Source: Paraburkholderia sp. ZP32-5
Lineage (GTDB): Bacteria; Pseudomonadota; Gammaproteobacteria; Burkholderiales; Burkholderiaceae
Assembly: GCF_021390495.1 (NCBI RefSeq)
Contig: NZ_JAJEJP010000001.1
Location: forward strand, 2,852,001 to 2,916,000
Direction of reading: 5' to 3'
Length of the DNA stretch: 64,000 nt
Positions 23,916-45,095 of the stretch are shown piece after piece (positions within the stretch are counted from its first letter, which is position 1; the number at the start of each line of letters is the position of its first letter). Position numbers and translations under genes: made by a program. The notes beneath the pieces were generated by a model. The model did no database searches, was not told where the DNA came from, and saw only the letters and a program-made list of their open reading frames with translations.

Positions 23916-24242
23916 ATGAAGAGCGCATTGGCGAGCGTCGCGACGGCTGCGGCGATCGGTGTGGGTGTGTTGACGCTCGGCGGCCTCGGCGGCTGTTCGA
24001 GCACGACCACGATGACCTATCTGCCGAGCGGCGAGACCGGCTTCGCGATCAACTGCAGCGGCAGCGACGCGAGCACGAGCTGGGGCGAATGCTACAAGCG
24101 CGCGGGCGAAGTCTGCGGCAATTACGGGTATGACGTGGTATCGAAAGACGTCGACAACGGCGCGACTTCGGGCGGCTCGATCGGCGGCATTTTCGGCGCG
24201 AACGTGAAGAACCGCTCGATGGTGATCCGCTGCAAGCAGTAG
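23916..24242 (+). CDS. Small cysteine-containing lipoprotein of unknown function
   Basis: A 108-residue lipoprotein. The signal peptide ends in GGLGGCSS, a usable lipobox. The mature part has a conserved-looking core with FAINCSGSDASTSWGECYKR and then AGEVCGNYGY, ending in MVIRCKQ, so four cysteines could pair in the envelope. AAGGA lies seven bases before the ATG at 23916. Similar short proteins are common in betaproteobacteria without assigned function; I know no experimental role. Confidence 0.78.
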   Translation: MKSALASVATAAAIGVGVLTLGGLGGCSSTTTMTYLPSGETGFAINCSGSDASTSWGECYKRAGEVCGNYGYDVVSKDVDNGATSGGSIGGIFGANVKNRSMVIRCKQ

Positions 24243-24493
24243 CGGCCGTAGCGCCGCCACGCGTCGCGCCAGGCCAGCGTGGCCGCCTGACGGCCAAGCC
24301 AGTGCCCGGAACTCGGGTCGATGCGCGCGGCGAAGCGCAGCAGCACCACGAGCGCAATCGGCCAGACACCCAGAAAGATGATCAACCAGTTCATGAGCCG
24401 CGCGACGGAACATAATCCGCCATGATCCGTCGCACGTATGAATCCGCGGTGAACCTTTCGTAAGCCGCTGAAAAAGTCCTCGTCAAATGCCCG

Positions 24494-24590
24494 AAAAAAA
24501 GCCCGGCACGGGGCCGGGCTAACGGGGGTTCGGCGCATATCGGCAAAGGACCGGTTCACCATGCGCCAGAACGAAATCTATCAACCCCCA
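24494..24590 (-). ncRNA. Candidate structured small RNA with intrinsic terminator
   Basis: On the minus strand an outer stem GGGGGTT (24589-24583) pairs with AACCCCC (24530-24524). Inside it GGCGCAT pairs with ATGCGCC (24567-24561 with 24538-24532). A terminator hairpin GCCCGGC...GCCGGGC follows (24519-24501), then seven T (24500-24494). No protein gene on this strand ends here, so the terminator needs another explanation. A possible -10 (TAACAT) lies about 40 bases upstream. The family is not recognised. Confidence 0.45.
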
Positions 24591-24599
24591 TTTACCAGC

Positions 24600-25060
24600 G
24601 CAATCCATTAATTTCGCAGTCAATGTTACACGGCGTACTGATTACGCAAACTGTGAATTGGAAATGTCGGAATGCGCCCGGCTAAATGCGCCGCACCGCC
24701 GACTGCCGATTTTGTCAAAAACGTGAACCGGATTGCGCGAATGGCGCGCCAGCCAATAGCATGGCCATGTCTGCGGAAAACTCGCCGCAAAACGCCTGAA
24801 GAAACCGATTTGGCCGATTTTTACTAAAGCATTAAGCCTTAAGGCGGATTCTTCTCATCGATTTAAGCTTGGTGCGGCAGCGCACGTAACAGATAAATTA
24901 ACTTCCAGCAACTCAAAATAAGTACTTTTATTTTACCTCGGGAAAATTCGCGAATAGCGAAAATAATAATTTTCGAATCAACCGACAAATAATCAATCAC
25001 TAATTCAAATCGCAAAACAAACCGACTAATCCGACGAAAATTCAAGCGCCTGCCTCGGGG
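24600..25060. other. AT-rich stretch without a supported gene
   Basis: Between the candidate small RNA and the DUF2288 gene the composition drops sharply, most strongly at 24830-25050, which is mostly A and T in a high-GC chromosome. The one minus-strand frame here (24863-25045) has an AT-driven composition and no ribosome site. The stretch could hold promoters or be a site bound by H-NS-like proteins. Confidence 0.5.
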
Positions 25061-25240
25061 GCCACTCGGGTGCCACGTTCAGCCGTCTGCCGCGTTGAAT
25101 CCACCGATCCGAAGGTTCAAAATCGGACTCAGCCCGGCGGCGGCCGGCAGTTCGCGCAAAGCGTTCCGATACCCGCATGCGCCGCCCGATCGCCCGTACC
25201 GATGGTTTATAGTGACGGCCCCGCCCGTCCCCCGCTTACG

Positions 25241-25549
25241 ATGACTGCCAACGACACCCCACACAGCCCGCTGTACGCAAAACTGCTCGGCGAAACCGCC
25301 AAGATCGGCTGGAGCGAGCTCGAACGGTTCTTTGCCCGCGGCATGCTGCTGCGTGTCGCGCGTGATCTCGATCTCGTCAGTGTCGCCGAAGCGATTGCCA
25401 GCGACGACACCACCCAGGTCACGCAATGGCTGTCCGCCGGCCTCGTCGAACGCGTGCAGTCGGAGACCGCCGCCGATTTCGCCGCGCGCGACCCCGACCT
25501 GTGGGCGGTGGTCGTGTCGCCGTGGGTCTGCGTGCAGGAGCGCTCTTGA
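25241..25549 (+). CDS. DUF2288 family protein
   Basis: A 102-residue soluble protein of the DUF2288 family, function unknown. LYAKLLGETAKIGWSELERF and the ending LWAVVVSPWVCVQERS match the family pattern throughout. The stop codon overlaps the start of the MATE transporter gene as TTGA, so the two are probably translationally coupled. Family members are conserved across proteobacteria and cyanobacteria as small acidic proteins. No motif suggests catalysis. Confidence 0.88.
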   Translation: MTANDTPHSPLYAKLLGETAKIGWSELERFFARGMLLRVARDLDLVSVAEAIASDDTTQVTQWLSAGLVERVQSETAADFAARDPDLWAVVVSPWVCVQERS

Positions 25550-28773: not shown

Positions 28774-28850
28774 CGGAGCGTAGCGCAGCCTGGTAGCGCA
28801 TCTGATTTGGGATCAGAGGGTCGTAGGTTCGAATCCTATCGCTCCGACCA
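28774..28850 (+). tRNA. tRNA-Pro (anticodon TGG)
   Basis: Acceptor arms CGGAGCG (28774-28780) and CGCTCCG (28840-28846) pair fully. The D-arm is GCGCAGCCTGGTAGCGC, the anticodon loop is TTTGGGA with anticodon TGG, and the T-arm is GTAGGTTCGAATCCTAT. A discriminator A and encoded CCA end at 28850. It reads CCA-type proline codons. The region beyond it carries an integrase relic, so the gene has served as an insertion site. Confidence 0.96.
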
Positions 28851-28944: not shown

Positions 28945-29472
28945 CTCCACCTCGTCTCTTCCACCGCGACCCCACTCGAACCTTCAGTCTTCGACGAGCG
29001 GAAGCGGATCACACCGGCAGCACGATCCACCGATGATCACTCGTCGTTCTTTGGGTCGGCCGCCCAGCGCGAATTACGGATTTCCCGAGAGCTGTGCAGT
29101 CGGGTAGCACCGATCGACAAAGCACTGCCTCATCGGCCCGGTCGAAACCTCAGCAGTTACCTCTTTTCCCTCTCGCACGCAGCTCGTCGTGAGCGTGGTC
29201 TCGCAGCCAAGATAATCGCCAGCGAAGCGCTGGTCGGATATCCGCGAACGCCGCAGCCTCGGCTGCTTCAGCCTGACATCGCTACACGGGTTCGGCGCCA
29301 CATGGCGCCGGTTGATACACCAGTCGAAGAAGCCGGACAGGAACGCACGCATCACGCGTTGCATATGCGGCTTGTCTTTCCCGTTGTCGCCGAGGAACTG
29401 TCGCACATACGGCACATCCGTATGCTCTCCGTTGATATCGGCGAATCGCCGGATGTCATTCAGAAAAAACCA
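28945..29472 (-). pseudogene. Decayed tyrosine recombinase (phage/island integrase)
   Basis: Pieces of one integrase appear in order on the minus strand. At 29472-29187 the core-binding domain reads FFDWCINRRHVAPNPCSDVR and then KQPRLRRS. Further along, GPMRQCFVDRCYPTAQ matches the start of the catalytic domain. After a frameshift, EIRNSRW matches the region around the first catalytic arginine. After another shift, GVIRFRSSKTEGSSGVAV (28950-29030) matches the next strands. The HxxR and Tyr boxes are absent, lost at the tRNA-Pro side. N-terminal residues upstream of a TGA are also missing. The gene pointed toward the tRNA, as integrases at tRNA sites usually do. Confidence 0.8.
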
Positions 29473-29663: not shown

Positions 29664-31028
29664 GTGTCAAAGGAATCATTCACGACTGCCGGACGCTCCG
29701 GGAAATTCTCGGTGACCAACTGGTCTCCTCTCACCGGCATCGGTCTTTTTAATGCGGACTACAACGTTGCCGCCGGCGAGATGAACATTACGATCAAGGT
29801 CTGCATCACGTTCTCGGATTTCAATCAAAAGTGGAACGATATAGAAAAGGTCGAGTGGCAGAAGGATCTTTTTGAAATCGTTTCGAAATTCTGGACTGAC
29901 CGATATCTGCTGCAGTGTACTCGCGAGGGCTGGAGTGAGTTTGCTGTGCAGGTTAAGGTCAATCTGGAGCTGGTACCAAAAACGGATGCCCACGTTGACA
30001 TTCAGGTCAGAAAGAACATGCCGGACGAGCCTACCAGCGGTGGCGGCGTCGGTTGGAGCGCTACTCCCCCGTTGTTGTCGATCGACAATAAGGCTATCTA
30101 TCCCAAAGACCAGCTGAAACAGCGTGAGGCCATTTTCAATCTGCGAATGGTGCAGATGGGGGAGGCCATTCGCGATCACCAGCTCGGATTTATCCCGTTC
30201 GCTAAAGACAGCGCGGATCTGAATTCCGATATGAAAATGAAGTTGCTGAGATTTGCGAGATACATTAATCAAATTTCAACCAACGATATTCGCGGCATAC
30301 AGCTTGTGGTTTACGGGCATACCGCGGGAAACGACAGTTTCATGAAGATCGGCCTTGGCAAACGGCGCGCACAAGCCGTCGCATCGGCGCTGGACACGGC
30401 CTTGGGTAATAACGTAAGCGTTTTCGTCACCGATTCCGATAGTTCCAAGGCCGGGCTCAAAAGCAGCATTCTAAAGACGCTCACCGACTTCCATAAGCGC
30501 GCCGTTACGTCGACATCCATTCAGGGCGTGTGCATTTCCGTGCGTGTTCCGAAGGCCGTAAGCCACGCAGCCGAAATGAATTACATCGTTGTTTGCCATG
30601 AATTTGGCCATATGCTGGGCCTGCCGGATGAATACATGGGCGCTCTTCATCCGTTGCTGACCGAGCGTGCCAATGCGGACAACATGATTTCCAAAACATT
30701 CCAGCGCGCCATCATGCAGGGCGATCCGGAGAAATGGCAGGATAGCCATAAGCGGATTCGCAATCAGCAAGCGGGTATGGCGGAAATGCTGCGCTATAAC
30801 ACCGACGTCAGGTCACCGACCTTTCTTACGCAGACGGAAGTGATCGATTCAACCATGGTGGCGACATCGAGCATCATGCATAGCGGTATGGAAGTCATGC
30901 CGGCGCATTATCTGACGGTCTGGTCTTGCCTCGCCGAAATGACCTGGGATTATCTCCCTCCTACCGCATGGAAGATCGTTCCGAGCCCTCGTAATCGGGA
31001 CGCCATCCGCTACTTCCGGCCCGCGTAG
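29664..31028 (+). CDS. OmpA-like domain fused to metzincin-like zinc protease
   Basis: A 454-residue protein not matching a family I can name. Residues about 1-120 form a beta-rich region with WNDIEKVEWQKDLFEIVSKF. Residues about 175-295 look OmpA-like: GFIPFAKDSADLNSDMKMKL, then VVYGHTAGNDS and GLGKRRAQAVASAL, the usual peptidoglycan-binding pattern. Residues 312-324 read HEFGHMLGLPDEY, a zinc site HExxHxxGxxD. TSSIMHSGMEVMP near 405 resembles a metzincin Met-turn. No signal peptide or membrane helix is seen, so export would need another route. The GTG at 29664 has AAAGGA seven bases upstream. Base composition is less GC-rich than neighbours, and it lies between an integrase relic and core genes, suggesting transfer. 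A cell-wall-targeted toxin or effector is one possibility. Confidence 0.8.
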   Translation: MSKESFTTAGRSGKFSVTNWSPLTGIGLFNADYNVAAGEMNITIKVCITFSDFNQKWNDIEKVEWQKDLFEIVSKFWTDRYLLQCTREGWSEFAVQVKVNLELVPKTDAHVDIQVRKNMPDEPTSGGGVGWSATPPLLSIDNKAIYPKDQLKQREAIFNLRMVQMGEAIRDHQLGFIPFAKDSADLNSDMKMKLLRFARYINQISTNDIRGIQLVVYGHTAGNDSFMKIGLGKRRAQAVASALDTALGNNVSVFVTDSDSSKAGLKSSILKTLTDFHKRAVTSTSIQGVCISVRVPKAVSHAAEMNYIVVCHEFGHMLGLPDEYMGALHPLLTERANADNMISKTFQRAIMQGDPEKWQDSHKRIRNQQAGMAEMLRYNTDVRSPTFLTQTEVIDSTMVATSSIMHSGMEVMPAHYLTVWSCLAEMTWDYLPPTAWKIVPSPRNRDAIRYFRPA

Positions 31029-31232: not shown

Positions 31233-31955
31233 TCAGCGCACCGCCAACAACGCGCCGAGCGGCATGCGCGAACAGACCTCGAGCGTCGCATCGAAGCGCA
31301 TCACGAGCGGCTCGGCATGCGCGACCTCGACCGATGCGATCGCGTCGTCGGCGATGCGATCGAGCTGCTTGAACAGCGCGCGCAGCGAATTGCCGTGGCC
31401 GACCATCAGCACCGATTGCCCGCGCGCGAGCGCCGGCGCGACGCAGTCGTCCCACAGCGGCAACACGCGATGCAGCGTATCGCGCAGGCTCTCGGTGCGC
31501 GGCAGCGCGTCGGGGCACGGCATCGAGTCGTCATGCAGCGCGCTCACCAGTTGCGCGTGCGTTTGGGCATCGAGCGGCGGCGGCGCCAATTCGAATCCGC
31601 GCCGCCATTCGCGCACGCGTTCGACGCCATAGGCAAGCGCCGCCGCGTTCTTTTCCATGCCGGTCAGCGCGCCGTAGTGCCGATCGTTCAGCCGCCACGA
31701 CCGCACGGTTTGCGGCACTGGTCGATCGAATGTCTGCATCGCGTGCGCGAGCGTATCGGTGGCGCGCAACAGCGCCGACGTGACCGCGAGATCGAATCGC
31801 AGGCCGGCTTCGCGCAACTGTTCGCCGACCCGACGTGCGTCCGCGACACCTTGCGCGGACAGTCCGACATCACTCCAGCCGGTGAAGCGGTTCGCGCGAT
31901 TCCAGATCGACTGACCATGGCGCAGCACGACCAGAGTGGCAGGTTGAGTGCTCAT
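31233..31955 (-). CDS. 2,3-bisphosphoglycerate-dependent phosphoglycerate mutase-like protein
   Basis: A 240-residue histidine phosphatase superfamily member. The phosphohistidine motif is LVVLRHGQSIWNRANRFTGW, and WRLNDRHYGALTGMEK and MVGHGNSLRALFKQ follow, all typical of dPGM (GpmA). It should interconvert 3- and 2-phosphoglycerate. It is somewhat shorter than E. coli GpmA (250). Its place at the end of a long catabolic gene run makes a second, cluster-specific copy possible, with the main gpmA elsewhere. That is inference. Confidence 0.88.
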   Translation of the reverse strand: MSTQPATLVVLRHGQSIWNRANRFTGWSDVGLSAQGVADARRVGEQLREAGLRFDLAVTSALLRATDTLAHAMQTFDRPVPQTVRSWRLNDRHYGALTGMEKNAAALAYGVERVREWRRGFELAPPPLDAQTHAQLVSALHDDSMPCPDALPRTESLRDTLHRVLPLWDDCVAPALARGQSVLMVGHGNSLRALFKQLDRIADDAIASVEVAHAEPLVMRFDATLEVCSRMPLGALLAVR

Positions 31956-32021
31956 GCCGGTCGCTCCGCATCGGTCGTAGCCGAGGATCGCAACGGCGGC
32001 ATCACTTCGTATCTCGCCATA

Positions 32022-32810
32022 TCACGCATGCGGACTTCCCTTCGCGGCAGCCGCGCTCGCGAGCGCGGCTTCGAGCATCGGCGCACCGAGTTCCGCGCCA
32101 TGAATGCCCGTCACGCTGACAACTTCCAGCAACTCCATCAGTTCTTCGGCCGTCGCGCCGTAACGCAGCGCGTTGCGGATATGCAGCTTCAAACCTGGCA
32201 CGTACAGATGCGTGGCGGACGCATCGAACGCGCAGTAGATGAACTCCTTGACCTTCGGGCTCAGCACGCCGGTACGCCACGGCACCGACGAAAATTCGAC
32301 ATACGCCTCGAACAGATCCGGATCGAGTTCGAGCAACCCTTCCCAGCTCGGATGCCAGTAACCGCGGTTCTTTTCGAACGCAGCCTTCAGCGCCTCACGC
32401 CGTGCGTCGAGCGGCGGCGCGCCGTGGCGCAGACCTTCTTCTTCGAGCACTTCGAGCAGCACCGGCACGCCGACATTGCTCGTGTGGATGCCGATCGTGC
32501 TGATCAGTTCGAGCACTTCGACGAGTTCGTCGCGCGTCGCACCGAACGACAGCGCACGCTCGATATGACGCGCGACACCCGGCGCATACAGTTGCGTCGC
32601 GCAGGCGTCGGCGGCCAGCGCGATGAATGCGCGGGTCTTGTCGTCGAGGTGATGGCGGCGGCGCGGCACGCCGGCAAACTTCAGGTACGCATCGACGAAC
32701 ACCGGGTCGAGCCGCACGAGGCTGTCCCATTCGGGGCTCGCTTTACCGTGCAGGCTGACGAGTTCGTCGCGCAGACGCGACGGATCGGGATGCGGTGGAG
32801 TCTGGTTCAT
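32022..32810 (-). CDS. Tandem carboxymuconolactone decarboxylase-like (AhpD-fold) protein
   Basis: A 262-residue protein made of two carboxymuconolactone-decarboxylase domains. The first includes TRAFIALAADACATQLYAPG and RALSFGATRDELVEVLELIS; the second repeats this as VKEFIYCAFDASATHLYVPG and NALRYGATAEELMELLEVVS. Neither copy shows the CxxC redox pair of AhpD, so a lyase-like or scaffold role is more likely than peroxidase support. It lies in the minus-strand catabolic run. The reaction is not known. Confidence 0.85.
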   Translation of the reverse strand: MNQTPPHPDPSRLRDELVSLHGKASPEWDSLVRLDPVFVDAYLKFAGVPRRRHHLDDKTRAFIALAADACATQLYAPGVARHIERALSFGATRDELVEVLELISTIGIHTSNVGVPVLLEVLEEEGLRHGAPPLDARREALKAAFEKNRGYWHPSWEGLLELDPDLFEAYVEFSSVPWRTGVLSPKVKEFIYCAFDASATHLYVPGLKLHIRNALRYGATAEELMELLEVVSVTGIHGAELGAPMLEAALASAAAAKGSPHA

Positions 32811-33084
32811 GACGTCGGTTCCATCGTAGGCTGAACAACATCAACATCGGTGAGGCGGTGGGGGCTGCGCCGCCGGATGCGATATCTGCGCAAGTGCGAA
32901 TACAAACACGCAAACGCGAGATGCACGCGGCCCGGCCGTACGAGCTGTCATCGCAAGCTCTGGCGCACGTACGCGCGAACGATACAGCGCGGCGCGGTGC
33001 AAAAAGTACCTGCCACTCGCGCCATCGCAACAAGCAACACGCACAGTAACACGCTGCCAATACGCACCGCAGCCGCGCCACCCC

Positions 33085-33477
33085 TCAACCCACCGCCGCC
33101 CCCGGATAATCGCCTTGCGCGACCTCCTCCTGCCACGTCCCCTTACCGATCGACGTCGCGATATGAACCATGTAGCTACCCTCGCTCGCGCCGTGCCAGT
33201 GCCGCTCGTTCGGGCCGATGAACACGATGTCGCCCTGGCGGATCGGCTGCGGCTCTTCGCCGTCGAGACAGACCCATCCCTGACCAGCCGTCACCTGCAG
33301 CACCTGGCCATGCTCGTGCGTGTGCCAGTACGTGCGCCCGCCCGGCGCGAAGAACACCGTGTTGATCGTCACACCGTTGGTCGCCGGCATCACCGGATCG
33401 GCCCACACGGTGCCGGTAAACGTATCGCTGCGACGCTCGGACATCGCGCCCTCTGCCCTGCCTTGAAAGACCTTCAT
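33085..33477 (-). CDS. Cupin-domain protein
   Basis: A 130-residue single cupin barrel. Motif 1 is GRTYWHTHEHGQVLQVTAG and motif 2 is GDIVFIGPNERHWHGA, providing His/Glu metal ligands. Small cupins of this type accompany carboxymuconolactone-decarboxylase-like proteins in many catabolic clusters, as here. The start ATG overlaps the stop of the upstream dehydrogenase gene as ATGA, so translation is probably coupled. The reaction may be a dioxygenase, isomerase or decarboxylase step; it cannot be chosen from sequence. Confidence 0.87.
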   Translation of the reverse strand: MKVFQGRAEGAMSERRSDTFTGTVWADPVMPATNGVTINTVFFAPGGRTYWHTHEHGQVLQVTAGQGWVCLDGEEPQPIRQGDIVFIGPNERHWHGASEGSYMVHIATSIGKGTWQEEVAQGDYPGAAVG

Positions 33478-34388
33478 GCGTTGTTCTCCCTGTCTGCGTG
33501 ATCGAAGAGGCGCACGCCGCCCGACACATCGCCGATCGCATCGACGACCCGGTTGCTGATCACATCGCCATAGCCGAGCGCGGTGCCCAGACCGAAGCTC
33601 GCGAGCGGGCCCGCGGCGTTCAGCGACATCACACCGAGTTCGCGCGCGCGATCGACGTACAGCACGACATCCTTCGTCATCAGCTTGCCGGTCAGGCCTC
33701 CTTCCAGATAATCGCCGCCGACGATCTTCGGAAAGCGGTTGAGCGTCGCGAAGTTGACACCGCTGCTGCTGTTCAGCACATCGAGCAGCAGATGCAGATC
33801 GAGCCCGGCCTTCTTGCCCGCGACCATCACCTCGGCGCTGGCCGCGAGACTCACCGCGTTCAGGAAGTTGTTCAGCAGCTTGGTCGTGTGACCGGAGCCG
33901 CTGTCGCCCATGTACGCGACCTTCGCGCTGATCGGCGCGAACGCCCATTGCAACGCCGCGACCGCGTCGGCCGCGCCGCCCACCATCAGAGTCAGCGTGC
34001 CTTTTTCGGCCGCGGCCGCGCCGCCCGAAATGCCCGCATCGACGTATTGCACGCCGCGCTCCGCGAAACGCTTCGCAACGCGAATCGTCGAACTCGCGGC
34101 GGCCGTGCTCAGATCGACGACGATCTGTCCGGCGCGGCAGTGCGCGAGCACGCCGCCTTCACCTTCGACTACCGTCTCGACCACCTTGCTGTCCGGCAGC
34201 GACATCATCACGACATCCGCGTAGTCGACCACTTCGCGCAACGACCCCGCCGCCTTCGCTCCAGCCGCCTCGGCGCGCTCGCGTGCGCTGTCGTAACCGA
34301 GCACCGCGATGCCCGCATCGACGAGCCGCCGCGTCATGCGTCCGCCCATATTGCCGAGACCGATAAAACCAATCCTTTCCTTGTTCAT
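33474..34388 (-). CDS. NAD(P)-dependent beta-hydroxyacid dehydrogenase (HIBADH/GarR family)
   Basis: A 304-residue enzyme that oxidises a 3-hydroxyacid to a semialdehyde or reduces the reverse. The Rossmann start is RIGFIGLGNMGGRMTRRLVD. The substrate-binding loop is VDAGISGGAAAAEKGTL, and the catalytic lysine lies in SGHTTKLLNNFLNA. GGAG-rich sequence precedes the ATG. It is 24 bases downstream of the MFS gene and overlaps the cupin gene. A second enzyme of the same family lies at 38505-39428, so the cluster handles hydroxyacids at two points or has a duplicated step. Confidence 0.92.
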   Translation of the reverse strand: MNKERIGFIGLGNMGGRMTRRLVDAGIAVLGYDSARERAEAAGAKAAGSLREVVDYADVVMMSLPDSKVVETVVEGEGGVLAHCRAGQIVVDLSTAAASSTIRVAKRFAERGVQYVDAGISGGAAAAEKGTLTLMVGGAADAVAALQWAFAPISAKVAYMGDSGSGHTTKLLNNFLNAVSLAASAEVMVAGKKAGLDLHLLLDVLNSSSGVNFATLNRFPKIVGGDYLEGGLTGKLMTKDVVLYVDRARELGVMSLNAAGPLASFGLGTALGYGDVISNRVVDAIGDVSGGVRLFDHADRENNA

Positions 34389-34412
34389 GACTCCGCTTCC
34401 TCTGCGACGAAA

Positions 34413-35762
34413 TTAGAAATCGACATCCTTCGTTTCCGGGCCCATCAACGCGCCGACCATGCCGAGCAGCCCGCCCATGCACAGCAGCACGACCGACGTC
34501 AGACGCAGCGGCATGAGCGCGCCGAGCCAGTTCATATAGAACGCGTAGAACGACGGGATGATCACCGACAGACTGAAGCCGACGCCGAAGCCGGTCGCGC
34601 GCACGTCGGTCACGAAGCGTTCATTGATATACGTGACGATCACGCCCCACGGCGACGTGACCAGCACCGCGAGCACGCAGGTCAGCGCCATGATGGCGCC
34701 GAGCGACAGTCCGTCCACGTTCGCGAGCACGTACAGCAGCACCGCGCCGACGGTCGCGATCAGCGGCCCGATGATCACGAAAAAGCGGCGCCGGCCGATG
34801 CGCTGCGCGATCAGCCCCGCGCCGATATAGCTGAAAAACAGCACGAAGTACGTGAGCATCAGTGTCGCGGTCATCTGGAAGCCGCTCAGATGCAGCGTCT
34901 TCACGAGCAGGCCCGTCGGCAGAAAAATCGTGATGATGTTCTGCGTGAGCCAGAAGCCCGTCATCATTACCAGCACCTGCAGCAGGCTGCGGCCGCTCTT
35001 GCCGCGCAGCAGATCGGACAGCGGCAGCTTTTCGGCGACCGCGCCCTTGTCTTCGGCTTCGCTTTTCCAGATCTCCGATTCGGCGACCTTGCGCACGTAG
35101 TACATCGCCAGCAGCCCGGCGAGCGCCGCGCCGATCACGAATGGAATGCGCCAGCCCCACTGCGCGTACGGCGAATTCATGCCGTTCAGCGGAAACAACA
35201 CGAACATCAGCATCGCGACGAGATTGATCGTCACGTAAGCGGCCGGAAAGCCCGCGATGATGAAGCCGCCGACGAAGCCGCGCTGCTCCTTCTTCGCGTA
35301 TTCGATCGCGAGCGGCATTGCGCCGGTATAGCCGCCGCCGAGAAAGATCCCGTCGACGAAACGCAGCAGCACCAACGCCCAGTACGACGCAATGCCGATA
35401 CTCTGATAACCCGGCAGCAACGCGATCAGCAGCGTCACCACGCCGAAGCCCGAGACCGACCAGATCGATGCCTTGCGGCGCCCGACCCGGTCCGCGATCA
35501 TGCCGAACACCAGCGCGCCGACCGGCCGGCCCAGCAGCGTCGTGATGAACACCAGCGACGCGAGAATCGTCTCCATGCCCGCCGACAGATGCGGCGGCTG
35601 AAAAAAAGCGAGCACCGGCGACAGCACCACGACCGGCAGATAGATATCGAACATGTCGATGAACTCGGAGAAGAACGCGCCCTTGATCGCGTTGCGTCTC
35701 TTCGTCTCGATCGATTGTTCGCCCTCCGACTGTACGACCTCATTCGCAGTCAATGCTTTCAT
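34413..35762 (-). CDS. MFS transporter, metabolite:H+ symporter type
   Basis: A 449-residue inner-membrane permease with 12 predicted helices. SEFIDMFDIYLPVVVLSPVL opens helix 1, and the loop 2-3 motif is FGMIADRVGRRKAS, typical of sugar- and acid-type MFS symporters. DGIFLGGGYTGAMPLAIEYA fits helix 4. The start at 35762 is preferred because GGAG lies six bases upstream; the ATG at 35774 has no good site. It likely imports the hydroxyacid or related substrate of the surrounding enzymes. Confidence 0.9.
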   Translation of the reverse strand: MKALTANEVVQSEGEQSIETKRRNAIKGAFFSEFIDMFDIYLPVVVLSPVLAFFQPPHLSAGMETILASLVFITTLLGRPVGALVFGMIADRVGRRKASIWSVSGFGVVTLLIALLPGYQSIGIASYWALVLLRFVDGIFLGGGYTGAMPLAIEYAKKEQRGFVGGFIIAGFPAAYVTINLVAMLMFVLFPLNGMNSPYAQWGWRIPFVIGAALAGLLAMYYVRKVAESEIWKSEAEDKGAVAEKLPLSDLLRGKSGRSLLQVLVMMTGFWLTQNIITIFLPTGLLVKTLHLSGFQMTATLMLTYFVLFFSYIGAGLIAQRIGRRRFFVIIGPLIATVGAVLLYVLANVDGLSLGAIMALTCVLAVLVTSPWGVIVTYINERFVTDVRATGFGVGFSLSVIIPSFYAFYMNWLGALMPLRLTSVVLLCMGGLLGMVGALMGPETKDVDF

Positions 35763-35907
35763 GCGTGTCTCCATTCGTTATCCGCACAGCGGACGGTGCG
35801 GGTTCTTCTTGCGTGGCCCCGTGCTCTGATCGTTGCCCGGTCTCGCGCCGGGTCTCTGTCTGGCTCGTGTTTTATGTGTGCGTGGCCGTTACCGCGACGT
35901 TGCCTCG

Positions 35908-36303
35908 TCAGGCCACCGCCATTTCGGTTTCGTAGGCCTTGATCGCTTCGCTGGCGACGCGAAACGCGGCCAGCGCGAGCGGCGCGCCGCAGTACACGCC
36001 CGCCTGCATCAGCACCGCGCGGATCTCGTCCTTCGTCACGCCGTTGCGCAGCGCGCCCTTCACATGCACCGACAACTCGTGGTGCTGGCTCATCGCGGTG
36101 AGCATCCCGAGGTTCAGCATGCTGCGTGTCCGGAACGACAGCGTCGGGTCGCCCCAGATATCGCCCCAGCAGCTTTCGGTGACGAACTTCTGCATCGGCC
36201 GGTTGAAATCGTCGGCATTCGCCCACGATTTTTCGACGTGCGCGGCACCGAGCACGTCCTTGCGATTCTCGAAGCCCTTGTTGAAGCGGTCGTTGGTGTC
36301 CAT
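35908..36303 (-). CDS. Carboxymuconolactone decarboxylase family protein
   Basis: A 131-residue single-domain AhpD-fold protein resembling 4-carboxymuconolactone decarboxylase (PcaC). It includes CWGDIWGDPTLSFRTRSMLN, HHELSVHVKGALRNGVTKDE and AGVYCGAPLALAAFR, which are close to PcaC motifs. No other protocatechuate-pathway genes are nearby, so a related lactone decarboxylation is as likely. GAGGA precedes the ATG at 36303. Confidence 0.87.
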   Translation of the reverse strand: MDTNDRFNKGFENRKDVLGAAHVEKSWANADDFNRPMQKFVTESCWGDIWGDPTLSFRTRSMLNLGMLTAMSQHHELSVHVKGALRNGVTKDEIRAVLMQAGVYCGAPLALAAFRVASEAIKAYETEMAVA

Positions 36304-36448
36304 CGTGATTCCTCTGTGGTTCTGCCTTTCACTGAGCGTGTTTGTCGTGCGGCGCTCCAGCAACGGTCTTCACACACGGCCGGTTAAGCTCGCCGTCGAT
36401 TGCATGAGCGGATGATTGTCAGACAGCCCGTTGGGGCAAAATTTTTTT

Positions 36449-36514
36449 GGCGTGGCACGGCGCGCGCGGCTGGCGGTATCGCATTGCATCGCAGTACGCC
36501 GCGCGTGCCACGCC
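36449..36514. terminator. Long hairpin downstream of the aldehyde dehydrogenase gene
   Basis: GGCGTGGCACG (36449-36459) pairs with CGTGCCACGCC (36504-36514). On the minus strand it follows the stop codon by five bases and is followed by A7T4 rather than a T run. It may end or protect the upstream transcript without being a classical intrinsic terminator. Confidence 0.45.
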
Positions 36515-36519
36515 GTCTT

Positions 36520-37950
36520 TCACTCGACGCCGTAACCGACCATCGCCTTGGTTTCCAGGTACTCGCGCAAGCCGGCTTCGCCCCATTCGCGGCCGTTGCC
36601 CGAGCGCTTGTAACCACCGAACGGCGCGTGGAAATCCGTGGGCGGGTAATTCAGATGCACGCCGCCCGCGCGCAATGCGCGGCCCACTTTGCGCGCGCGC
36701 GCGACATCGGCCGATTGCACGTAAGCGGCGAGACCGTAGTCGGTACCGTTGGCGATCGCGATCGCTTCGTCTTCCGAGTCGTACGGGATCATCGACAGCA
36801 CCGGCCCGAAGATTTCCTCGCGCGCGATCGTCATCCGCGGCGTGACGTCGGCGAACACCGTCGGGCGCGCGTAGTAGCCCACTTCGATACCGTCCGGCCG
36901 GCCGATACCGCCGACCACGAGCCGCGCACCTTCGTCGATACCGGTCTGGATCAGCGCCTGCACGCGCCTGAACTGGTTTGCGTTGACGAGCGGTCCGATC
37001 TGCGTGGCCGGATCGTCGGTCGGACCGACGCGGTACGCTTGCGCCGCGCGTTTGGCGATCTGCGCGGCGTCGTTCATCAGATGACGCGGCACCAGCATGC
37101 GGGTCGGAATCGAGCACGACTGGCCGGAGTTCGTAAAACAGGCCGCCACGCCACGCGTGACTGCCTGATCGAGATCGACATCGTCGAGCAGGATGTTGGC
37201 CGACTTGCCGCCGAGTTCCTGCGCGACGCGCTTGACGGTTTCGGCCGCCGACTGCGCAACCAGTACACCCGCGCGCGTCGAACCGGTGAACGACACCATG
37301 TCGATATCCGGATGGCTCGCGATCGCAGCGCCGACGCCGGGCCCATCGCCATTGACGAGATTGAACACACCGGCGGGCACGCCCGCTTCGTGCAGCACTT
37401 GCGCGAACGCGAGCGCGCTGAGCGGCGAATACTCGCTCGGCTTCAGCACCATCGTGCAGCCTGCCGCGAGCGCGGGCGCGATCTTCACGACGATCTGGTT
37501 GATCGGCCAGTTCCACGGCGTAATCAAACCGCACACGCCGATCGGTTCGAGCACGATGCGCGTGCTGCCACGCTGCTCCTCGAAGTCGAAGCGTTCGAGC
37601 ACTTCGATCAGCGCGTTCAGGTGCGCCGGCCCGCGCACGGCCTGAGCATTGCGCGCGAACGTGATCGGCGCGCCCATTTCGCGGCGCATCAGTTCGGCGA
37701 AATCGTCGTAGCGCCGCTCGTAGATAGCGACCACGCGCCTGAGCAGCGCGACCCGCTCGGCCGCGCTGGTTGCGGACCACGCCGGCAACGCGCAGCGCGC
37801 GGCGGCGACCGCGCGATCGACATCCGTTGCATTGCCGAGCGCGAGCTTGTCGAATACTTTTTCCGTCGCTGGATCGATCATGTCGAACCAGGCAGCGGAC
37901 GCGGGATCGACCCACTGTCCATCGATATAAAACTGCGCTGCATAGGTCAT
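36520..37950 (-). CDS. Aldehyde dehydrogenase, NAD(P)-dependent
   Basis: A 476-residue aldehyde dehydrogenase oxidising an aldehyde or semialdehyde to the acid. The NAD fold includes PWNWPINQIVVKIAPALAAG and SFTGSTRAG; the catalytic Glu is in AQELGGKSANILL and the catalytic Cys in NSGQSCSIPTRML. GREWGEAGLREYLETKAM ends the oligomerisation region. GGAG is six bases before the ATG at 37950. With the neighbouring hydroxyacid dehydrogenases it forms an alcohol-aldehyde-acid sequence. Confidence 0.93.
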   Translation of the reverse strand: MTYAAQFYIDGQWVDPASAAWFDMIDPATEKVFDKLALGNATDVDRAVAAARCALPAWSATSAAERVALLRRVVAIYERRYDDFAELMRREMGAPITFARNAQAVRGPAHLNALIEVLERFDFEEQRGSTRIVLEPIGVCGLITPWNWPINQIVVKIAPALAAGCTMVLKPSEYSPLSALAFAQVLHEAGVPAGVFNLVNGDGPGVGAAIASHPDIDMVSFTGSTRAGVLVAQSAAETVKRVAQELGGKSANILLDDVDLDQAVTRGVAACFTNSGQSCSIPTRMLVPRHLMNDAAQIAKRAAQAYRVGPTDDPATQIGPLVNANQFRRVQALIQTGIDEGARLVVGGIGRPDGIEVGYYARPTVFADVTPRMTIAREEIFGPVLSMIPYDSEDEAIAIANGTDYGLAAYVQSADVARARKVGRALRAGGVHLNYPPTDFHAPFGGYKRSGNGREWGEAGLREYLETKAMVGYGVE

Positions 37951-38061
37951 CGGAGGCTCCAGAATCAATCCCGGTCACGCGGACACGGTCCCATCGGCGC
38001 GCCCATCACGTTGAGGCCGATAAAGCCAACTCGTTTTGGGCGCGCCATCAAAAGACCCTGC

Positions 38062-38388
38062 TTAGCGCAGCGCCGAGAACGCGGTCGGCGTCAGGAAGTG
38101 GTTTTCGATGCGCTCGACGATCGGCGTCACCGCTTCGCTCGCCGCGCGTTTGGCGATCCAGTCGGCGTCGGCCTGGAACGCATTCCACTTCTGCTCGCGC
38201 TCGGCGAGGCTTTCCCACTTGAGCATGTAGGTCAGCGCGTGATTGCTCGGGCCGATCAGCGTGGTCCAGAAACCGATCTGCTGGATGCCGTGCTTTTCGA
38301 AGAAGCCGAGCGTGGTCGACGTGAAGCGGTCGAGCAGTGCCGGCAAACGTGTCGGCGCGCAGTGATAGATGCGCATTTCAACGATCAT
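38062..38388 (-). CDS. NIPSNAP family protein
   Basis: A 108-residue ferredoxin-like alpha/beta-barrel protein of the NIPSNAP family. MIVEMRIYHCAPTRLPALLD and LTYMLKWESLAEREQKWNAF are the family landmarks. Such proteins often sit in catabolic operons and may act as small isomerase-like or monooxygenase-like enzymes, but function is mostly unknown. It lies between the aldehyde dehydrogenase and the second hydroxyacid dehydrogenase gene, all minus strand. Confidence 0.88.
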   Translation of the reverse strand: MIVEMRIYHCAPTRLPALLDRFTSTTLGFFEKHGIQQIGFWTTLIGPSNHALTYMLKWESLAEREQKWNAFQADADWIAKRAASEAVTPIVERIENHFLTPTAFSALR

Positions 38389-38504
38389 GTGTTACTCCTT
38401 GTGTGGTCAGGTGTAGGCCGGCGCGACGCGCCGGCCACCGTTTGTTCGTCTGTGTGATGGTTCGTTCAATTCCGCCGCTCGGTGCGTGCGCTTAGTGCAT
38501 CCGC

Positions 38505-39428
38505 TCACTCGGCAAGCCCTTGCGGCGACGACCAGCGCTCGACGTACTTGACGAGTTCGGTCATGTCGCGCTTCGCGCCGTCCTGCATCGCCGAGTAGTT
38601 CCACACCTGGCGCGCGACGCTGCCGACCCACATCGGTACGCCGAGCGCCTGGCATTCGTCGACCGCAAGGCCGATGTCCTTGCAAACGCTGCCGACTGGA
38701 AAGCCGAAATCGAAGCTGTGCGTCAGCACGTGTTTCGGAAACTTGTCGAGCGTCGCGCCGTTTTTGCCGCTGCCCGAATTGATCACCGACATCATCACCT
38801 CGGGGTCGAGCCCGCCGCGCACGCCGGCCACGAATGCTTCCGACGTGATCGCGAACGCGGTCGACGACAGCATGTTGTTCAGCAGCTTCAGCAACTGCCC
38901 CTGGCCCGGCTGAGTGCCGACGACGAACACCTTGCCGAGCACGTCGAAGAGCGCGCGGACTTCGTTGAGCGCGGCCGGCTTGCCCGCGGCCATGATCGCG
39001 AGCGTGCCCTTCCTTGCGCCCGCGGCGCCGCCGCTCACCGGCGCGTCGACCGTGTCGATGTCTTTCGCGAGCAGCCCGTCGGCCACTTCCTTTTCCATAC
39101 GCGAACCGACCGTCGACAGATCGACGAGTATCCTCAGCGCGCTGCCTTCGATCAGACCGTCTTCACCGAGCGCCACCTGTTTGAAAATCGCCGGCGTCGG
39201 CAGGCTGGTGAAAACGATCCGCGCGCTGTCGGCGACTTCGCGCACCGAGTCCGCGGCGTGCGCTCCGATCGCCTCGAGTTCCGCGAGCGCCTGTTCATCG
39301 CGATCGAACACGACGAGCGTATGGCCCGCCTCGATCAGCCGGCGCGCCATCGGCCGTCCCATCACGCCTACACCGACAAAACCGATCCGCTTGCTGCGTT
39401 GTTCGCTGCTTTGTTCGTTGCCCGACAT
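38505..39428 (-). CDS. NAD(P)-dependent beta-hydroxyacid dehydrogenase (second copy)
   Basis: A 307-residue member of the 3-hydroxyisobutyrate dehydrogenase family. It shows RIGFVGVGVMGRPMARRLIE for NAD binding, VDAPVSGGAAGARKGTLAIM for substrate and GQLLKLLNNMLSS with the catalytic Lys. It is clearly divergent from the copy at 33474-34388, so it is not a recent duplicate. The ATG at 39428 has GGGGA upstream; the ATG at 39440 has none. Its substrate probably belongs to the same pathway. Confidence 0.9.
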   Translation of the reverse strand: MSGNEQSSEQRSKRIGFVGVGVMGRPMARRLIEAGHTLVVFDRDEQALAELEAIGAHAADSVREVADSARIVFTSLPTPAIFKQVALGEDGLIEGSALRILVDLSTVGSRMEKEVADGLLAKDIDTVDAPVSGGAAGARKGTLAIMAAGKPAALNEVRALFDVLGKVFVVGTQPGQGQLLKLLNNMLSSTAFAITSEAFVAGVRGGLDPEVMMSVINSGSGKNGATLDKFPKHVLTHSFDFGFPVGSVCKDIGLAVDECQALGVPMWVGSVARQVWNYSAMQDGAKRDMTELVKYVERWSSPQGLAE

Positions 39429-39467
39429 GGCTGTCCCCATCGATTGGAAATTCGTTGATCGCGCGGC

Positions 39468-40874
39468 TCAGTTCACACACGCGAGTTGCATCAGTGTTGC
39501 CGCATCGGTCTCGCTATCGAAGCGCCAAAGCGTATCGATCAGCGGTTGCGGCGCGACGCCCCAGCCGCCATAGGCGGCAAGCTCACGCAGCTTCGCCGCG
39601 AGTTCGACGTCGGCGAGCGGCGCGGCAAGGCTGCCGCGCGCCGCATCGATACGTCGCGAGACCCTATCGCCCGAGCGCAGCACCAGCGCGACCTCGGCCG
39701 CTTCGAGCGGAAACGCCGCGGCGTCGATAAAGCGCAGACGCGCGCCGAATGCGCGCAACGACGGCTCGGCGACCGCGTCGTCGCTGAATTGCGCGAGGCC
39801 CGCGAGACCTGTTGCGAGCGTGACGGCCACCGCATGCTGGGCGCTGACCTGCGCTTCGCGGCCGGTGCGCGCGTTGGGCCGGTCGGTGCGTTCGCGTAGC
39901 AACGGATGCCCGGTCAGTTCGACCCGCTCGATATCGTCGAGACGCCAGCGCGCATCGCGGCGCAAATCCAGGCACGCGTCGATCACCGGGTTCAGCACCA
40001 CGCCGCACGGATACGGCTTGTAGGTATTCGACAGCAGCGCCCATTCGTGGCCGAGTCCATCGGTCAGCGCATCGAGCTTCGGCGCCGTGGCGGCGACGCG
40101 CACAAAACCGCGCGTGCCTTCGAGCGGCGCATCGGGACCGGAGAAATCGTCGGCGGCGAGCAGCGCCGACAGCAGACCGTTACGCGCCGCGTTGCCCACG
40201 CTGAGGCTTTTCGACATCGTGCCCAGCGTCTCGACCAGACCACCCGCCTGTGCGGACGCATTGCCGAGCGCCCACACGAGCTGCTGCGCGCTCAAACCCA
40301 GTGCCTTGGCCACCGCCGCAGCCGCGCCGAACACGCCGCAGGTCGACGTGATGTGCCAGCCACGCTGATAGTGCTCGGGGGATACCGCCTTGCCGATCCG
40401 GCATTCCACTTCGACGCCGAGCACGAAGGCGAGCAGCAACGCTTCACCACTGATCGGCTGGGTCTGCGCGAGCGCGAACAGCGCGGCGGCCACCGGCGCG
40501 CTCGGATGAATGATGGTCGGGATATGGGTGTCGTCGAAGTCGAACACGTTCGCGCTGATCGCGTTGAGCGCCGCCGCGTTCAGCATGTCGACGCGCTCGC
40601 GCCGGCCGATCACGCCTGCGCTTAGGCCGGCGCTGAAGCGCTGATAAGTGCGCACTGCCTTGTCGACTGTCGGGTCCGTGCAGCCGGCCAGCGCGACGGC
40701 CACGTAGTTGATGAGCGCTCGCTTCGCTTCGTGCCGCACCACCATGGGCACGTCGCGCCACGTCGTCGCCGCGACCCATTGCGCGATGCGCCGGGTCGCG
40801 TGGCCGGCGTCGCGGTTGGTGCTGCCCTGGTAACTGCCGGCTTCGCTGGAACTGCTGTCTGACTGCGCTGCCAT
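39468..40874 (-). CDS. MmgE/PrpD family protein
   Basis: A 468-residue protein of the 2-methylcitrate dehydratase/MmgE family, which includes cis-aconitate decarboxylase and 2-methylcitrate dehydratase. VFDFDDTHIPTIIHPSAPVA is the family signature, and TYKPYPCGVVLNPVIDACLD follows as usual. The reaction is a dehydration or decarboxylation of a polycarboxylate. No prpB or prpC genes are present, so methylcitrate is not implied. It lies 67 bases downstream of the first MFS gene. Confidence 0.88.
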   Translation of the reverse strand: MAAQSDSSSSEAGSYQGSTNRDAGHATRRIAQWVAATTWRDVPMVVRHEAKRALINYVAVALAGCTDPTVDKAVRTYQRFSAGLSAGVIGRRERVDMLNAAALNAISANVFDFDDTHIPTIIHPSAPVAAALFALAQTQPISGEALLLAFVLGVEVECRIGKAVSPEHYQRGWHITSTCGVFGAAAAVAKALGLSAQQLVWALGNASAQAGGLVETLGTMSKSLSVGNAARNGLLSALLAADDFSGPDAPLEGTRGFVRVAATAPKLDALTDGLGHEWALLSNTYKPYPCGVVLNPVIDACLDLRRDARWRLDDIERVELTGHPLLRERTDRPNARTGREAQVSAQHAVAVTLATGLAGLAQFSDDAVAEPSLRAFGARLRFIDAAAFPLEAAEVALVLRSGDRVSRRIDAARGSLAAPLADVELAAKLRELAAYGGWGVAPQPLIDTLWRFDSETDAATLMQLACVN

Positions 40875-40941
40875 GTGCGGACTCGTCCTCTACCGTTTTG
40901 CGCCTGACGACAATGCTTTGCTGTTTCGCGTACTACGCGGC

Positions 40942-42357
40942 TTACGATCTCGTCACCGGCGCCGCGCGACCGTCGACCACCTGAGTGCTCGCGTCGGCCG
41001 TTCTGCTCACTTGCGCCGCGATCGATTCGAGCGAGCGCCGGCGCGTCTCGGTGCCGAGCACGCCGACGATCACCGCCTGCACCAGCAACGTACCGACGAT
41101 CAGCGTCAGCACGCCGGCAATGCCGAAGCCGGTGAAAGCCGACGCGACCACGTACGGCACCGCGATGCTGACTGCGCGGCCCACTGTGTTCGCGACGCCC
41201 GAGCCGCGCAAACGCAGTTCGGTCGGAAACAGTTCCGGCACATAGGTGGCGACGCTGAACGACGACAGCACGTAGATGCAGCAGGTAATCGCGAAGCCGA
41301 GCGCGGCGATCGCCACCTCGGACTGCGCAAACGGATAGGCAGCGCCGAACGCCGCGCAGATCAACGAAAACAGCACGATGCCCCACTTGCGGCCGACGCG
41401 TTCGGCCAGCGCAAACGCGATCAGCGAGCCCACCGGGCCGCCCGCGAACATCACCGCGGTCAGGCCCAGCGAGTTCGACACGCTATGGCCCTGCTTGACG
41501 AGGAAAGTCGGAATCCAGCTGACGAATGCGTAGTTCACGACGAACAGCGCGACCAGCACCGTGATGGCCGTGATCGTGCGCGTGAGCAACCGGCGCGTGA
41601 ACAGATCGCCGAGACGGCCGTTGTCTGGCGTGTCGACGCGGCGCGGCTGCTGTGCGGCCGCCGTGATCGCGGCAGCGGAATCGACGCCGCACGCCGCCTC
41701 GATGTCCGACACGATCCGGTTCGCCTCGTCCGCGCGATTGCGCGACGCGAGCCAGCGCGGCGACTCCGGCATCGATTTGCGCAGGAACCACACGATCAGC
41801 GCGCCGCAGCCCGCGATCGCGAACATCCAGCGCCAGCCGTATTGCGGCACGATCAGCCAGCCGAGGAAGGTCGACAGGAACAGCGACGTATTGATGATCA
41901 GATTGAGGATCGTGCCGAAGCGGCCGCGCCACGCGGCCGGAATGAATTCACTGAGCGTGCCGTAACCGACGACGATCTCCGCGCCCATTCCGATGCCCAT
42001 CACGAGGCGAAAGAAGATCAGCCAGGCCATCGACGGCGCGAGTGCCGCGGCGATCGATGCAAAGCCGTAGATGCCGAGATTGAACTGATAGCAGAAGCGC
42101 CGCCCGAAACGGTCGCCGAGCAGACCGGACAGCCACGCGCCCGACATCATGCCGAGGAACGTGACGGACACGAACATCGCGTTGAGCTTCAGCGTGGATT
42201 CGCCGCTGTGGATCATCGCGGCCAGCACGCTGCCGGCGATGTAGATATCGAACGAGTCGAAGTACATGCCGGCGGCGATCAGGCCGAGCAGCCGCCAGTG
42301 ATAGCCGGACAGCGGCACGCTGTCCAACCGGTATCCGATAGTCGCTTCGTTCTGCAT
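40942..42357 (-). CDS. MFS transporter, first gene of the catabolic run
   Basis: A 471-residue permease of the sugar/aromatic-acid symporter type. The first helix region is LIAAGMYFDSFDIYIAGSVL, and the loop 2-3 motif is GLLGDRFGRRFCYQFN. PESPRWLASRNR after helix 6 is the classical PESPRxL motif. The ATG at 42357 follows GGAG by nine bases; a GTG eight codons upstream is less supported. A 14-bp operator-like palindrome lies 70 bases upstream, so it is likely under the nearby LacI regulator. It may lead a transcript of up to eleven genes. Confidence 0.9.
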   Translation of the reverse strand: MQNEATIGYRLDSVPLSGYHWRLLGLIAAGMYFDSFDIYIAGSVLAAMIHSGESTLKLNAMFVSVTFLGMMSGAWLSGLLGDRFGRRFCYQFNLGIYGFASIAAALAPSMAWLIFFRLVMGIGMGAEIVVGYGTLSEFIPAAWRGRFGTILNLIINTSLFLSTFLGWLIVPQYGWRWMFAIAGCGALIVWFLRKSMPESPRWLASRNRADEANRIVSDIEAACGVDSAAAITAAAQQPRRVDTPDNGRLGDLFTRRLLTRTITAITVLVALFVVNYAFVSWIPTFLVKQGHSVSNSLGLTAVMFAGGPVGSLIAFALAERVGRKWGIVLFSLICAAFGAAYPFAQSEVAIAALGFAITCCIYVLSSFSVATYVPELFPTELRLRGSGVANTVGRAVSIAVPYVVASAFTGFGIAGVLTLIVGTLLVQAVIVGVLGTETRRRSLESIAAQVSRTADASTQVVDGRAAPVTRS

Positions 42358-42426
42358 GGGCACTGTCTCCGTCAATGTCACTTTCTTGTCGTGGCATTCC
42401 TGGTCCGCACCAACTCGCCCATCTTA

Positions 42427-42440
42427 TGTGAGCGCTATCA
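42427..42440. promoter_or_regulatory. LacI-type operator before the first MFS gene
   Basis: TGTGAGCGCTATCA, a near-palindrome centred on GCGC, matching 12 of 14 bases of the inferred TGATAGCGCTATCA. It lies 70 bases upstream of the MFS start. Confidence 0.65.
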
Positions 42441-42559
42441 CTGAAGCAGATTATATTGCCGTCATACGATCAGTCAAGCCGACATTTCTGCTGTCAGGGT
42501 CTTTTTATCGATCGGGGAGGGCCGGCGTTCTACTGCACGCCATAACACCGCGTAGCCGC

Positions 42560-43339
42560 TCAGGTCGCGAGCCAGCCGCCTTCCACGGGCAGCATCGCGC
42601 CCGTGATCTGCGCGGCGGCATCGCCGCACAGAAACACCACCAGATCGGACACCTGCGACGCCTCGACGAAGCGGCCAGTCGGCTGCTTGCCCGTCAGGAA
42701 GCGCTCCACCGCCGTTTCGCGATCGAGTCCGGCGTCGTCCATCAACGCCTGAATGCGGTTCTCGCTGGTCGGCGTATGCACGGCGCCCGGACAGATCGCG
42801 TTGCACGTGATGCCCTGCCCCATCGTCTCGGCGGCGACCGCGCGCGTCAGTCCGAGCAGCGCGGACTTGGTCGTCACGTAATCGACGCGGTTCACCGTGC
42901 CGCGCATCCCGTACACCGACGTCATGTTGAAAATGCGGCCCCAACCACGTTCGCGCATGCCCGGCAGCGCCAGACGAACGGTGTGAAACGCGGCGCTCAG
43001 ATTGACCGCCAGTGCTTCGTCCCATTTGTCGACGGGGAACGCGTCGAGCGGCGCGAAATGGCGCACCACCGCGTTGTTGACCAGCACGTCGATCGAGCCT
43101 AGCCGCTCGCGTGCTTCGAACATCATCCGTTCCACCGCGCGCGCATCGCCGAGATCCATCTGCAGATAAGCGGTGTGGCGGCCGTGTCGGTCTTCGAACG
43201 CGGCGCGCGCCGCCTCGACCTGCGCGGGCGGCTCGACGCCATGCAGCACGACCCGACAGCCGGCCGCGGCGAGCGCGTCGGCCATTGCCAGACCCAGACC
43301 ATGCGACGACCCCGTGACGAGTGCGGTTCTCCCCTTCAT
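42560..43339 (-). CDS. Short-chain dehydrogenase/reductase (3-hydroxybutyrate dehydrogenase-like)
   Basis: A 259-residue classical SDR. The cofactor site is TALVTGSSHGLGLAMADALA, the NNA motif is VLVNNAVVRHFAP, and the catalytic Ser, Tyr and Lys are in FNMTSVYGM and RVDYVTTKSALLG. ICPGAVHTPTSENRIQAL resembles D-3-hydroxybutyrate dehydrogenase, which is a guess at the subfamily. The ATG at 43339 follows AAGGGAAAG. An operator-like site lies 71 bases upstream. It likely acts in the same pathway as the downstream genes. Confidence 0.9.
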   Translation of the reverse strand: MKGRTALVTGSSHGLGLAMADALAAAGCRVVLHGVEPPAQVEAARAAFEDRHGRHTAYLQMDLGDARAVERMMFEARERLGSIDVLVNNAVVRHFAPLDAFPVDKWDEALAVNLSAAFHTVRLALPGMRERGWGRIFNMTSVYGMRGTVNRVDYVTTKSALLGLTRAVAAETMGQGITCNAICPGAVHTPTSENRIQALMDDAGLDRETAVERFLTGKQPTGRFVEASQVSDLVVFLCGDAAAQITGAMLPVEGGWLAT

Positions 43340-43409
43340 TCTGCTTTCCCTTGTCTGAGCTGCGCGTTGCGGGGCGGCCACGAACAGGCGTCGCTTGCCG
43401 TGCGAAATA

Positions 43410-45069: not shown

Positions 45070-45095
45070 TTCGCAGGGAACAGGAGACAGTCGCC

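Follow-up and report, generated by a model that had tools for sequence, protein, structure and literature searches.

A predicted metzincin-type protease with a nested OmpA-like domain in Paraburkholderia sp. ZP32-5, a candidate cargo of contractile injection systems

What is the function of a solitary gene that belongs to no named protein family, and by what route could its product act? This question is raised by an open reading frame (ORF) at 29664..31028 (+) of a 64,000-nucleotide stretch of the Paraburkholderia sp. ZP32-5 genome (contig NZ_JAJEJP010000001.1, positions 2,852,001 to 2,916,000), which is referred to below as the window. The original prediction, made from the sequence alone, described an OmpA-like domain followed by a metzincin-like protease and proposed a wall-directed protein delivered by a contractile or type VI-like system, or a phage-derived lytic factor. 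The ORF has a GTG start and encodes 454 amino acids; it is a real gene and part of an unnamed, sparsely distributed family, in which a 33-row alignment and an AlphaFold model delineate a metzincin with a nested OmpA-like domain. Computed evidence covers the sequence family, its catalytic motif, the nested architecture, and the occurrence of some relatives at loci for type VI secretion systems (T6SS) and extracellular contractile injection systems (eCIS). We consider the product to be probably an orphan T6SS metalloprotease effector, encoded away from its apparatus.

A predicted metzincin domain split by an OmpA-like insert

The protein search returned 39 homologues, the closest being 92% identical, and where the source gives any name they are called hypothetical proteins with the single exception of one OmpA-like annotation. 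As originally stated, no named family applies: none of the Pfam and TIGR families matches the 454-aa protein above its cut-off. The window protein resembles Peptidase M6/TIGR03296, snapalysin M7 and M64 in the HExxHxxGxxD-type zinc motif, but none of these matches reaches its curated cut-off, and those from Pfam extend little beyond the motif itself. They comprise Pfam Peptidase_M6 (PF05547; E 1.4e-3, residues 309-324, 18.4 bits vs a cut-off of 22), the TIGR03296 M6 domain (E 2.1e-7, spanning the zinc motif, far below cut-off), M7 (E 0.041) and M64 (E 0.13); two relatives, L076 (25.4 bits) and P0003 (22.8 bits), exceed the Peptidase M6 cut-off. The M6, M7 and M64 families are mostly exported via signal peptides. 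No signal-like N-terminus was seen by inspection of the window protein, in line with the earlier reading. PADLOC gave no match for the window protein, and a role in anti-phage defence was dropped from consideration.

The zinc site HEFGHMLGLPDEY (30597..30635, +; residues 312-324) and the Met-turn S403-I404-M405 (30870..30878, +) occupy exactly the residue numbers that had been assigned to them. H312, H316 and D322 are the presumed zinc ligands, and E313 the presumed base. Conservation was assessed in the 33-row alignment (A1), which contains the window protein and 32 relatives and leaves out the partial or distant sequences P0014 and P0034-P0039, and in a broader alignment of 21 rows (A2). Residues H312, E313, H316, G319, D322, E323 and Y324 are kept in all 33 rows of A1, and homologues lacking HExxH, which would have spoken against a protease, did not appear among them. 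The Met-turn is likewise complete in 33 of 33 rows; altogether 13 of the 14 positions examined in the catalytic part are invariant in A1, and the fourteenth, P413, is kept in 32 rows. In A2, the residues H312, E313, H316, G319, D322, Y324, M405, G408 and H415 are invariant (21/21). Both hallmarks of metzincins, the HExxHxxGxx(H/D) motif and a Met-turn downstream of it, are therefore present in the two alignments.

The AlphaFold model (pLDDT 87.1, pTM 0.83), a prediction of the zinc-free chain, places the HExxH helix, D322 and the Met-turn in metzincin-like order and adds the C-terminal metzincin helix at residues 413-426 (30900..30941, +), where H415 is also kept in 33 of 33 rows of A1. The order of metzincin elements is broken at residues ~149-301 by an OmpA/Pal fold. 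Upstream of this break, residues 1-148 consist mostly of the N-terminal metzincin subdomain, assigned to residues 39-141 (29778..30086, +) by the modelled secondary structure and a profile match; the model shows strands at 39-51, 81-85, 94-103, 111-116, 127-130 and 137-141 and a helix at 59-77.

The nested arrangement is also seen by comparison with a compact metzincin family, for which no published name was found, and which consists of an Aquimarina protein (L027) and 297 others of ~220 aa. The compact proteins share three conserved blocks with the window protein in the same order, colinear on both sides of the OmpA-like insert, and differ from it by the absence of both this insert and a second one. 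A compact-family profile built from 100 of 120 listed sequences (195-240 aa) matches residues 39-120 better than all 100 column-shuffled controls; an earlier profile from two compact sequences matched the zinc motif alone, and the N-terminal part was reached with 100. By the model and this alignment, the OmpA-like domain is within the metzincin domain and not ahead of it. Both parts of the fusion proposed originally are thus present, but their order has to be revised.

The OmpA/Pal-like insert itself spans residues 149-301 (30108..30566, +). Its similarity to OmpA is weak yet real: the Pfam match (E 3.8e-4, residues 179-243) scores 21.2 bits vs a cut-off of 27.2, and the equivalent segment of an eCIS-branch relative (L011) lies above this cut-off (E 1.6e-9, 38.4 bits). 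The modelled OmpA/Pal fold is convincing. The single PHROGs match of the window protein is weak and located in the same region. The second insert, residues 326-400 (30639..30863, +), separates the zinc motif from the Met-turn by 75 residues, where the compact family has 8 between its aligned blocks; it is mostly helical in the model (330-339, 345-349 and 360-378) and contains the blocks of lowest confidence.

Relatives at T6SS and eCIS loci

A scan of genome contigs kept 79 distinct loci, many of which match solely around the zinc motif. Fifteen unfused loci encode the long protein (the window, L002-L009, L019, L076 and L153-L156), a count that omits the partial L024, a fragment in genome G938, L026 with its different build, and short matches limited to the zinc-motif region. 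Five of these 15, with the window included in the total, are linked to T6SS genes. In a Silanimonas metagenome-assembled genome (MAG; L002) the tail of clpV ends at ~340 and the protease gene follows directly at 361-1722; in a Burkholderiales MAG (L003) the clpV tail reaches 508 and is followed by the protease gene (560-1924), a TPR-methyltransferase gene and then VgrG. The Luteimonas locus (L076) has the order TssC, TssF, ClpV and protease gene, and at L006 and L156 the protease gene is divergent from TssA, Hcp, TssC and TssF. The remaining ten loci show no T6SS link in the flanking DNA examined, by a tblastn search with T6SS proteins from L003, L006 and L076 that distant ones could escape. 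Downstream of the Silanimonas protease gene, a 385-aa protein without a Pfam match (L002:2029-3186) is a possible partner or second effector.

Of the 11 genomes tested, a set that excludes those of L153-L155, eight have TssC-type sheath genes; none was detected in the L002 and L003 MAGs or in Amycolatopsis (L019). In the genus of P. aurantia (G146), TssC occurs in 53 of 108 genomes and the full-length protease gene in four of those 53; one more genome has a fragment of the gene and no TssC. All four full-length carriers belong to the six genomes in which the sheath genes form a tandem pair with a short (433-452 aa), low-scoring second copy (p 2.8e-6). The value becomes 2.4e-5 when the set is loosened to nine genomes and 1.4e-5 when the fragment genome is counted as a miss, and for any T6SS the association gives p 0.055. 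Since this subtype was chosen post hoc and the genomes are related to one another rather than independent, the association is support and not proof. In two of the four carriers the gene is unlinked to T6SS, like the window copy. Genomes G144-G148, G946, G971 and G1026 were noticed to have a T6SS subtype in which sheath (VipB) genes occur as a tandem pair, with a divergent and usually short second copy. Damaged protease copies were also observed, namely a split frame in Vibrio sinus (L009:9562-11044) and one stop each in L153 and L155, which suggests that the gene has been lost repeatedly.

The compact family also reaches a T6SS locus. The gene for its Aquimarina member is flanked by Hcp (TssD, E 3.3e-38) and VgrG, and an RHS protein follows; around another compact-family gene, L079, no T6SS gene was seen by eye.

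A further branch of the family links the protease to eCIS. At 11 loci (L011-L018 and L020-L022) eCIS_core is found in the same protein as the metzincin, and in seven of the 11 the contig also carries a gp25 gene 21-24 kb off (represented in G151 by two weak pieces, of which one is below cut-off). No gp25 was found on the contigs of L013, L016, L020 and L021, where the gene lies close to the end of its contig or the contig is short. In an Accumulibacter genome (G150) the eCIS cluster includes Baseplate_J, Phage_base_V and Tail_P2_I, with the metzincin and two more eCIS_core proteins beside it. One of these two (L131:3895-5757), encoded next to the eCIS_core-OmpA-metzincin gene, has eCIS_core and OmpA (E 2e-13) without the protease; it and the metzincin fusion are 40% identical over 170 aa in the eCIS_core region. 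L010 and P0038 are additional eCIS_core fusions, and L023 looks like one by eye.

In a 63-row tree, whose deep forks are unsure, the window protein groups with P0001 and P0002, all within a clade of 18 rows (97/95) that also includes the clpV-linked L002 and L003. Twelve eCIS_core rows form a cluster (99/99), and L010 and L023 are placed elsewhere on long branches. The tree excludes P0014, P0034, P0036 and P0037, weaker hits, the near-duplicates P0006, P0031 and P0040, and the broken or partial L009, L024, L025, L153 and L155. Wherever the surroundings of relatives have a recognisable theme it is T6SS or eCIS, with no unrelated function, so the contractile or type VI-like delivery envisaged at the outset is the best-supported context.

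Genomic setting of the window copy

The tRNA-Pro(TGG) gene located by ARAGORN at 28774..28850 (+), 813 bp upstream of the protease gene, is a possible integration site. Between them, at 29077..29415 (-), a possible integrase remnant was recognised by eye; Pfam gives no family for it, and its one match, weak and unannotated, is on a plasmid (39% over 61 aa, E 4e-7). As predicted, GC content is low around the gene, 0.506-0.540 in the 1-kb stretches of 29.0-31.0 kb vs ~0.61-0.70 in most neighbours. A second dip to 0.555-0.561 was noted to the left, at 24000-25499. The block to the right of the gene, as far as ~42.4 kb, has matches at ~84% on second replicons of other Paraburkholderia; for the flanks at 14.0-28.8 kb and 42.3-63.9 kb, the matches cover at most 8% of the query among the best 5 of 16 and 8 of 132 records, respectively. 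Because of this right-hand block, the protease gene may mark the tRNA-proximal edge of a larger tRNA-Pro-linked insertion. The earlier picture of a lone gene at a tRNA-linked insertion holds for the nearby tRNA and the orphan position, but the putative insertion may exceed the gene, and no second copy of the tRNA-Pro 3' end or other attachment repeat was found within the 64-kb window. For an empty-site comparison, 30 genomes were searched with the neighbouring histidine phosphatase gene; outside the own genome a long match exists in G023 alone, where the 18 kb examined lack a tRNA. By eye and by the annotations of matches, positions 31233-47000 hold catabolic-type genes (MFS transporters, dehydrogenases, MmgE/PrpD and a lactonase-like gene).

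The full gene occurs in one of 144 genomes of the genus, its own. The order set (399 genomes) and the phylum set (398 genomes), each including the own genome, gave 12 and 20 other matches, all partial and lying near the zinc motif or the OmpA region. In the order to which G162 belongs, 398 genomes yielded five matches, two of them previously known. The own genome (9.09 Mb, four contigs) contains four TssC loci. The eCIS_core domain (DUF4157) that marks eCIS cargo is carried by the sister branch and was found neither in the window protein nor in the own genome, where other eCIS-specific genes were not searched for.

A probable orphan T6SS effector and its alternatives

From these features we infer the protease activity, delivery and toxicity of the window copy, its wall step and its substrate, in the following mechanism. 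The metzincin-type zinc protease would be carried as cargo by a contractile injection system, in the likeliest case a T6SS of its own genome, and in the absence of a signal-like N-terminus it would stay in the cytosol of the producer until injection. In the target, zinc would be bound via H312, H316 and D322, E313 would act as the base, and a target protein would be cut. Placement of the protease in the target would fall to the nested OmpA-like domain, the simplest site being the cell wall or the periplasm, and the enzyme would possibly act at the target envelope.

Several observations weigh against this reading. The window copy is an orphan, neither in nor beside a T6SS locus. Orphan T6SS effectors exist, and the position thus weakens only the direct claim of a T6SS effector. 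Other observations concern the wall step. Pfam OmpA is detected at E 0.05 in three of eight family proteins scanned and not in L006, L076, P0023, L019 or L010. We take an Asp column and R235 to be the diaminopimelate contacts of OmpA domains; the Asp column holds G in 29, A in three and a gap in one of the 33 rows of A1, and D in none of the 21 rows of A2. R235 is kept in 33/33 and 17/21 rows, so that of the Asp-Arg pair expected for peptidoglycan binding by OmpA/Pal domains the Asp is missing. Since this canonical residue is absent, cell-wall binding by the OmpA-like domain is only plausible from its sequence, and a step of wall contact is perhaps somewhat less likely than not. Among ten longer compact proteins scanned, an N-terminal LysM is above cut-off in P0141 and P0163 (below it in P0144) and an N-terminal PG_binding_1 in P0158 and P0159, which hints that wall modules were recruited repeatedly to metzincins of the compact family. 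Hence the originally proposed peptidoglycan-binding and wall-directed character is retained in part, through the weak Pfam match, the OmpA/Pal-like fold and the wall modules of compact relatives, but one of the two diaminopimelate contacts is gone.

The lost Asp also suits an injected anti-eukaryotic effector, an unlikely though tenable alternative that overlaps with the T6SS effector in its delivery; it would cut a protein in protists, fungi or plant cells, the OmpA-like domain serving as a protein-binding module and not as a wall anchor. No recognisable immunity gene lies beside the window gene and no next gene is shared across the T6SS-linked loci looked at, a lack that this role would explain. 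A notable share of PVC/eCIS toxins is described without adjacent immunity genes (PMC3482391). On the other side, T6SS cargo is more often antibacterial, and wall-type modules recur among the compact relatives.

The low GC content, the orphan position and the presence in one of 144 genus genomes, together with the damaged copies elsewhere, could instead point to a relic, a horizontally acquired orphan near a tRNA gene without current function. We regard this as rather improbable, as the frame in the window is intact with its catalytic residues and the 92% identical relative is likewise full length with them. Still less probable is a housekeeping protease of the injection machine, which would not be injected but would trim or mature a component of the T6SS or eCIS within the producing cell. 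The gene directly after clpV in L002 and L003, the invariant catalytic site and the absence of a recognised immunity gene agree with such a role; however, few T6SS carriers have the gene (4/53 TssC genomes in the genus of P. aurantia), and it is fused in the sister branch to eCIS_core, a domain of eCIS cargo (PMC8213781). The phage-derived lytic factor is hardly credible, since despite the tRNA and integrase-like fragment close by no relative was found in viral contigs, plasmids or phages and the weak PHROGs match is confined to the OmpA region.

An orphan T6SS effector is thus the preferred explanation, and metallopeptidase cargo of this kind has precedents. The window protein shares with the VgrG2b C-terminal domain/Tpe1 the nature of an HExxH metallopeptidase; VgrG2b is carried by T6SS and toxic in the target periplasm, and direct substrate cleavage was not found in that study (PMC6899460). 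VgrG2b differs in being a VgrG fusion with a cognate immunity protein and homologues often annotated DUF4157, and neither a Met-turn nor a nested OmpA domain is described in the available text (PMC6899460), a distinction made by description. Candidate Peptidase M64 effectors of the Salmonella SPI-6 T6SS (PMC11669294) are similarly metallopeptidases predicted as T6SS cargo but belong to the M64 family, again set apart by description. On the eCIS side, eCIS_core cargo (PMC8213781, PMC11297309), Cgo1 (PMC8894135), and toxins with a terminal OmpA as well as metallopeptidase toxins (PMC3482391) are prior art. The 'Tox-OmpA' toxins of PVC, an eCIS, likewise combine eCIS_core-type and OmpA-type domains in injected proteins, as does the Accumulibacter protein beside the metzincin gene; in those toxins OmpA reportedly always occupies the extreme C-terminus, as the putative toxin, whereas in the window family it is internal to the protease (PMC3482391). 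Within the accessible text of these papers the window architecture is not described, and in a literature search that covered few subscription papers we recognised no description of T6SS or eCIS cargo in which an OmpA domain is inserted into a metzincin.

Taken more broadly, the metzincin module could be a shared cargo of proteobacterial T6SS, Bacteroidota-type T6SS (TssD) and eCIS, in two of which the nested OmpA-like domain would split the catalytic domain and tie the protease to recognition of the wall, contact with which could then position or trigger cleavage; we hold this proposal to be doubtful. If true, it would provide a direct link between the cargo repertoires of eCIS and T6SS. Metallopeptidase cargo of the two systems is a known but poorly understood kind, and a family that occurs in both, whose catalytic site is fixed and whose protease contains a nested domain, offers a defined active-site mutant (E313A) and a defined domain to probe.
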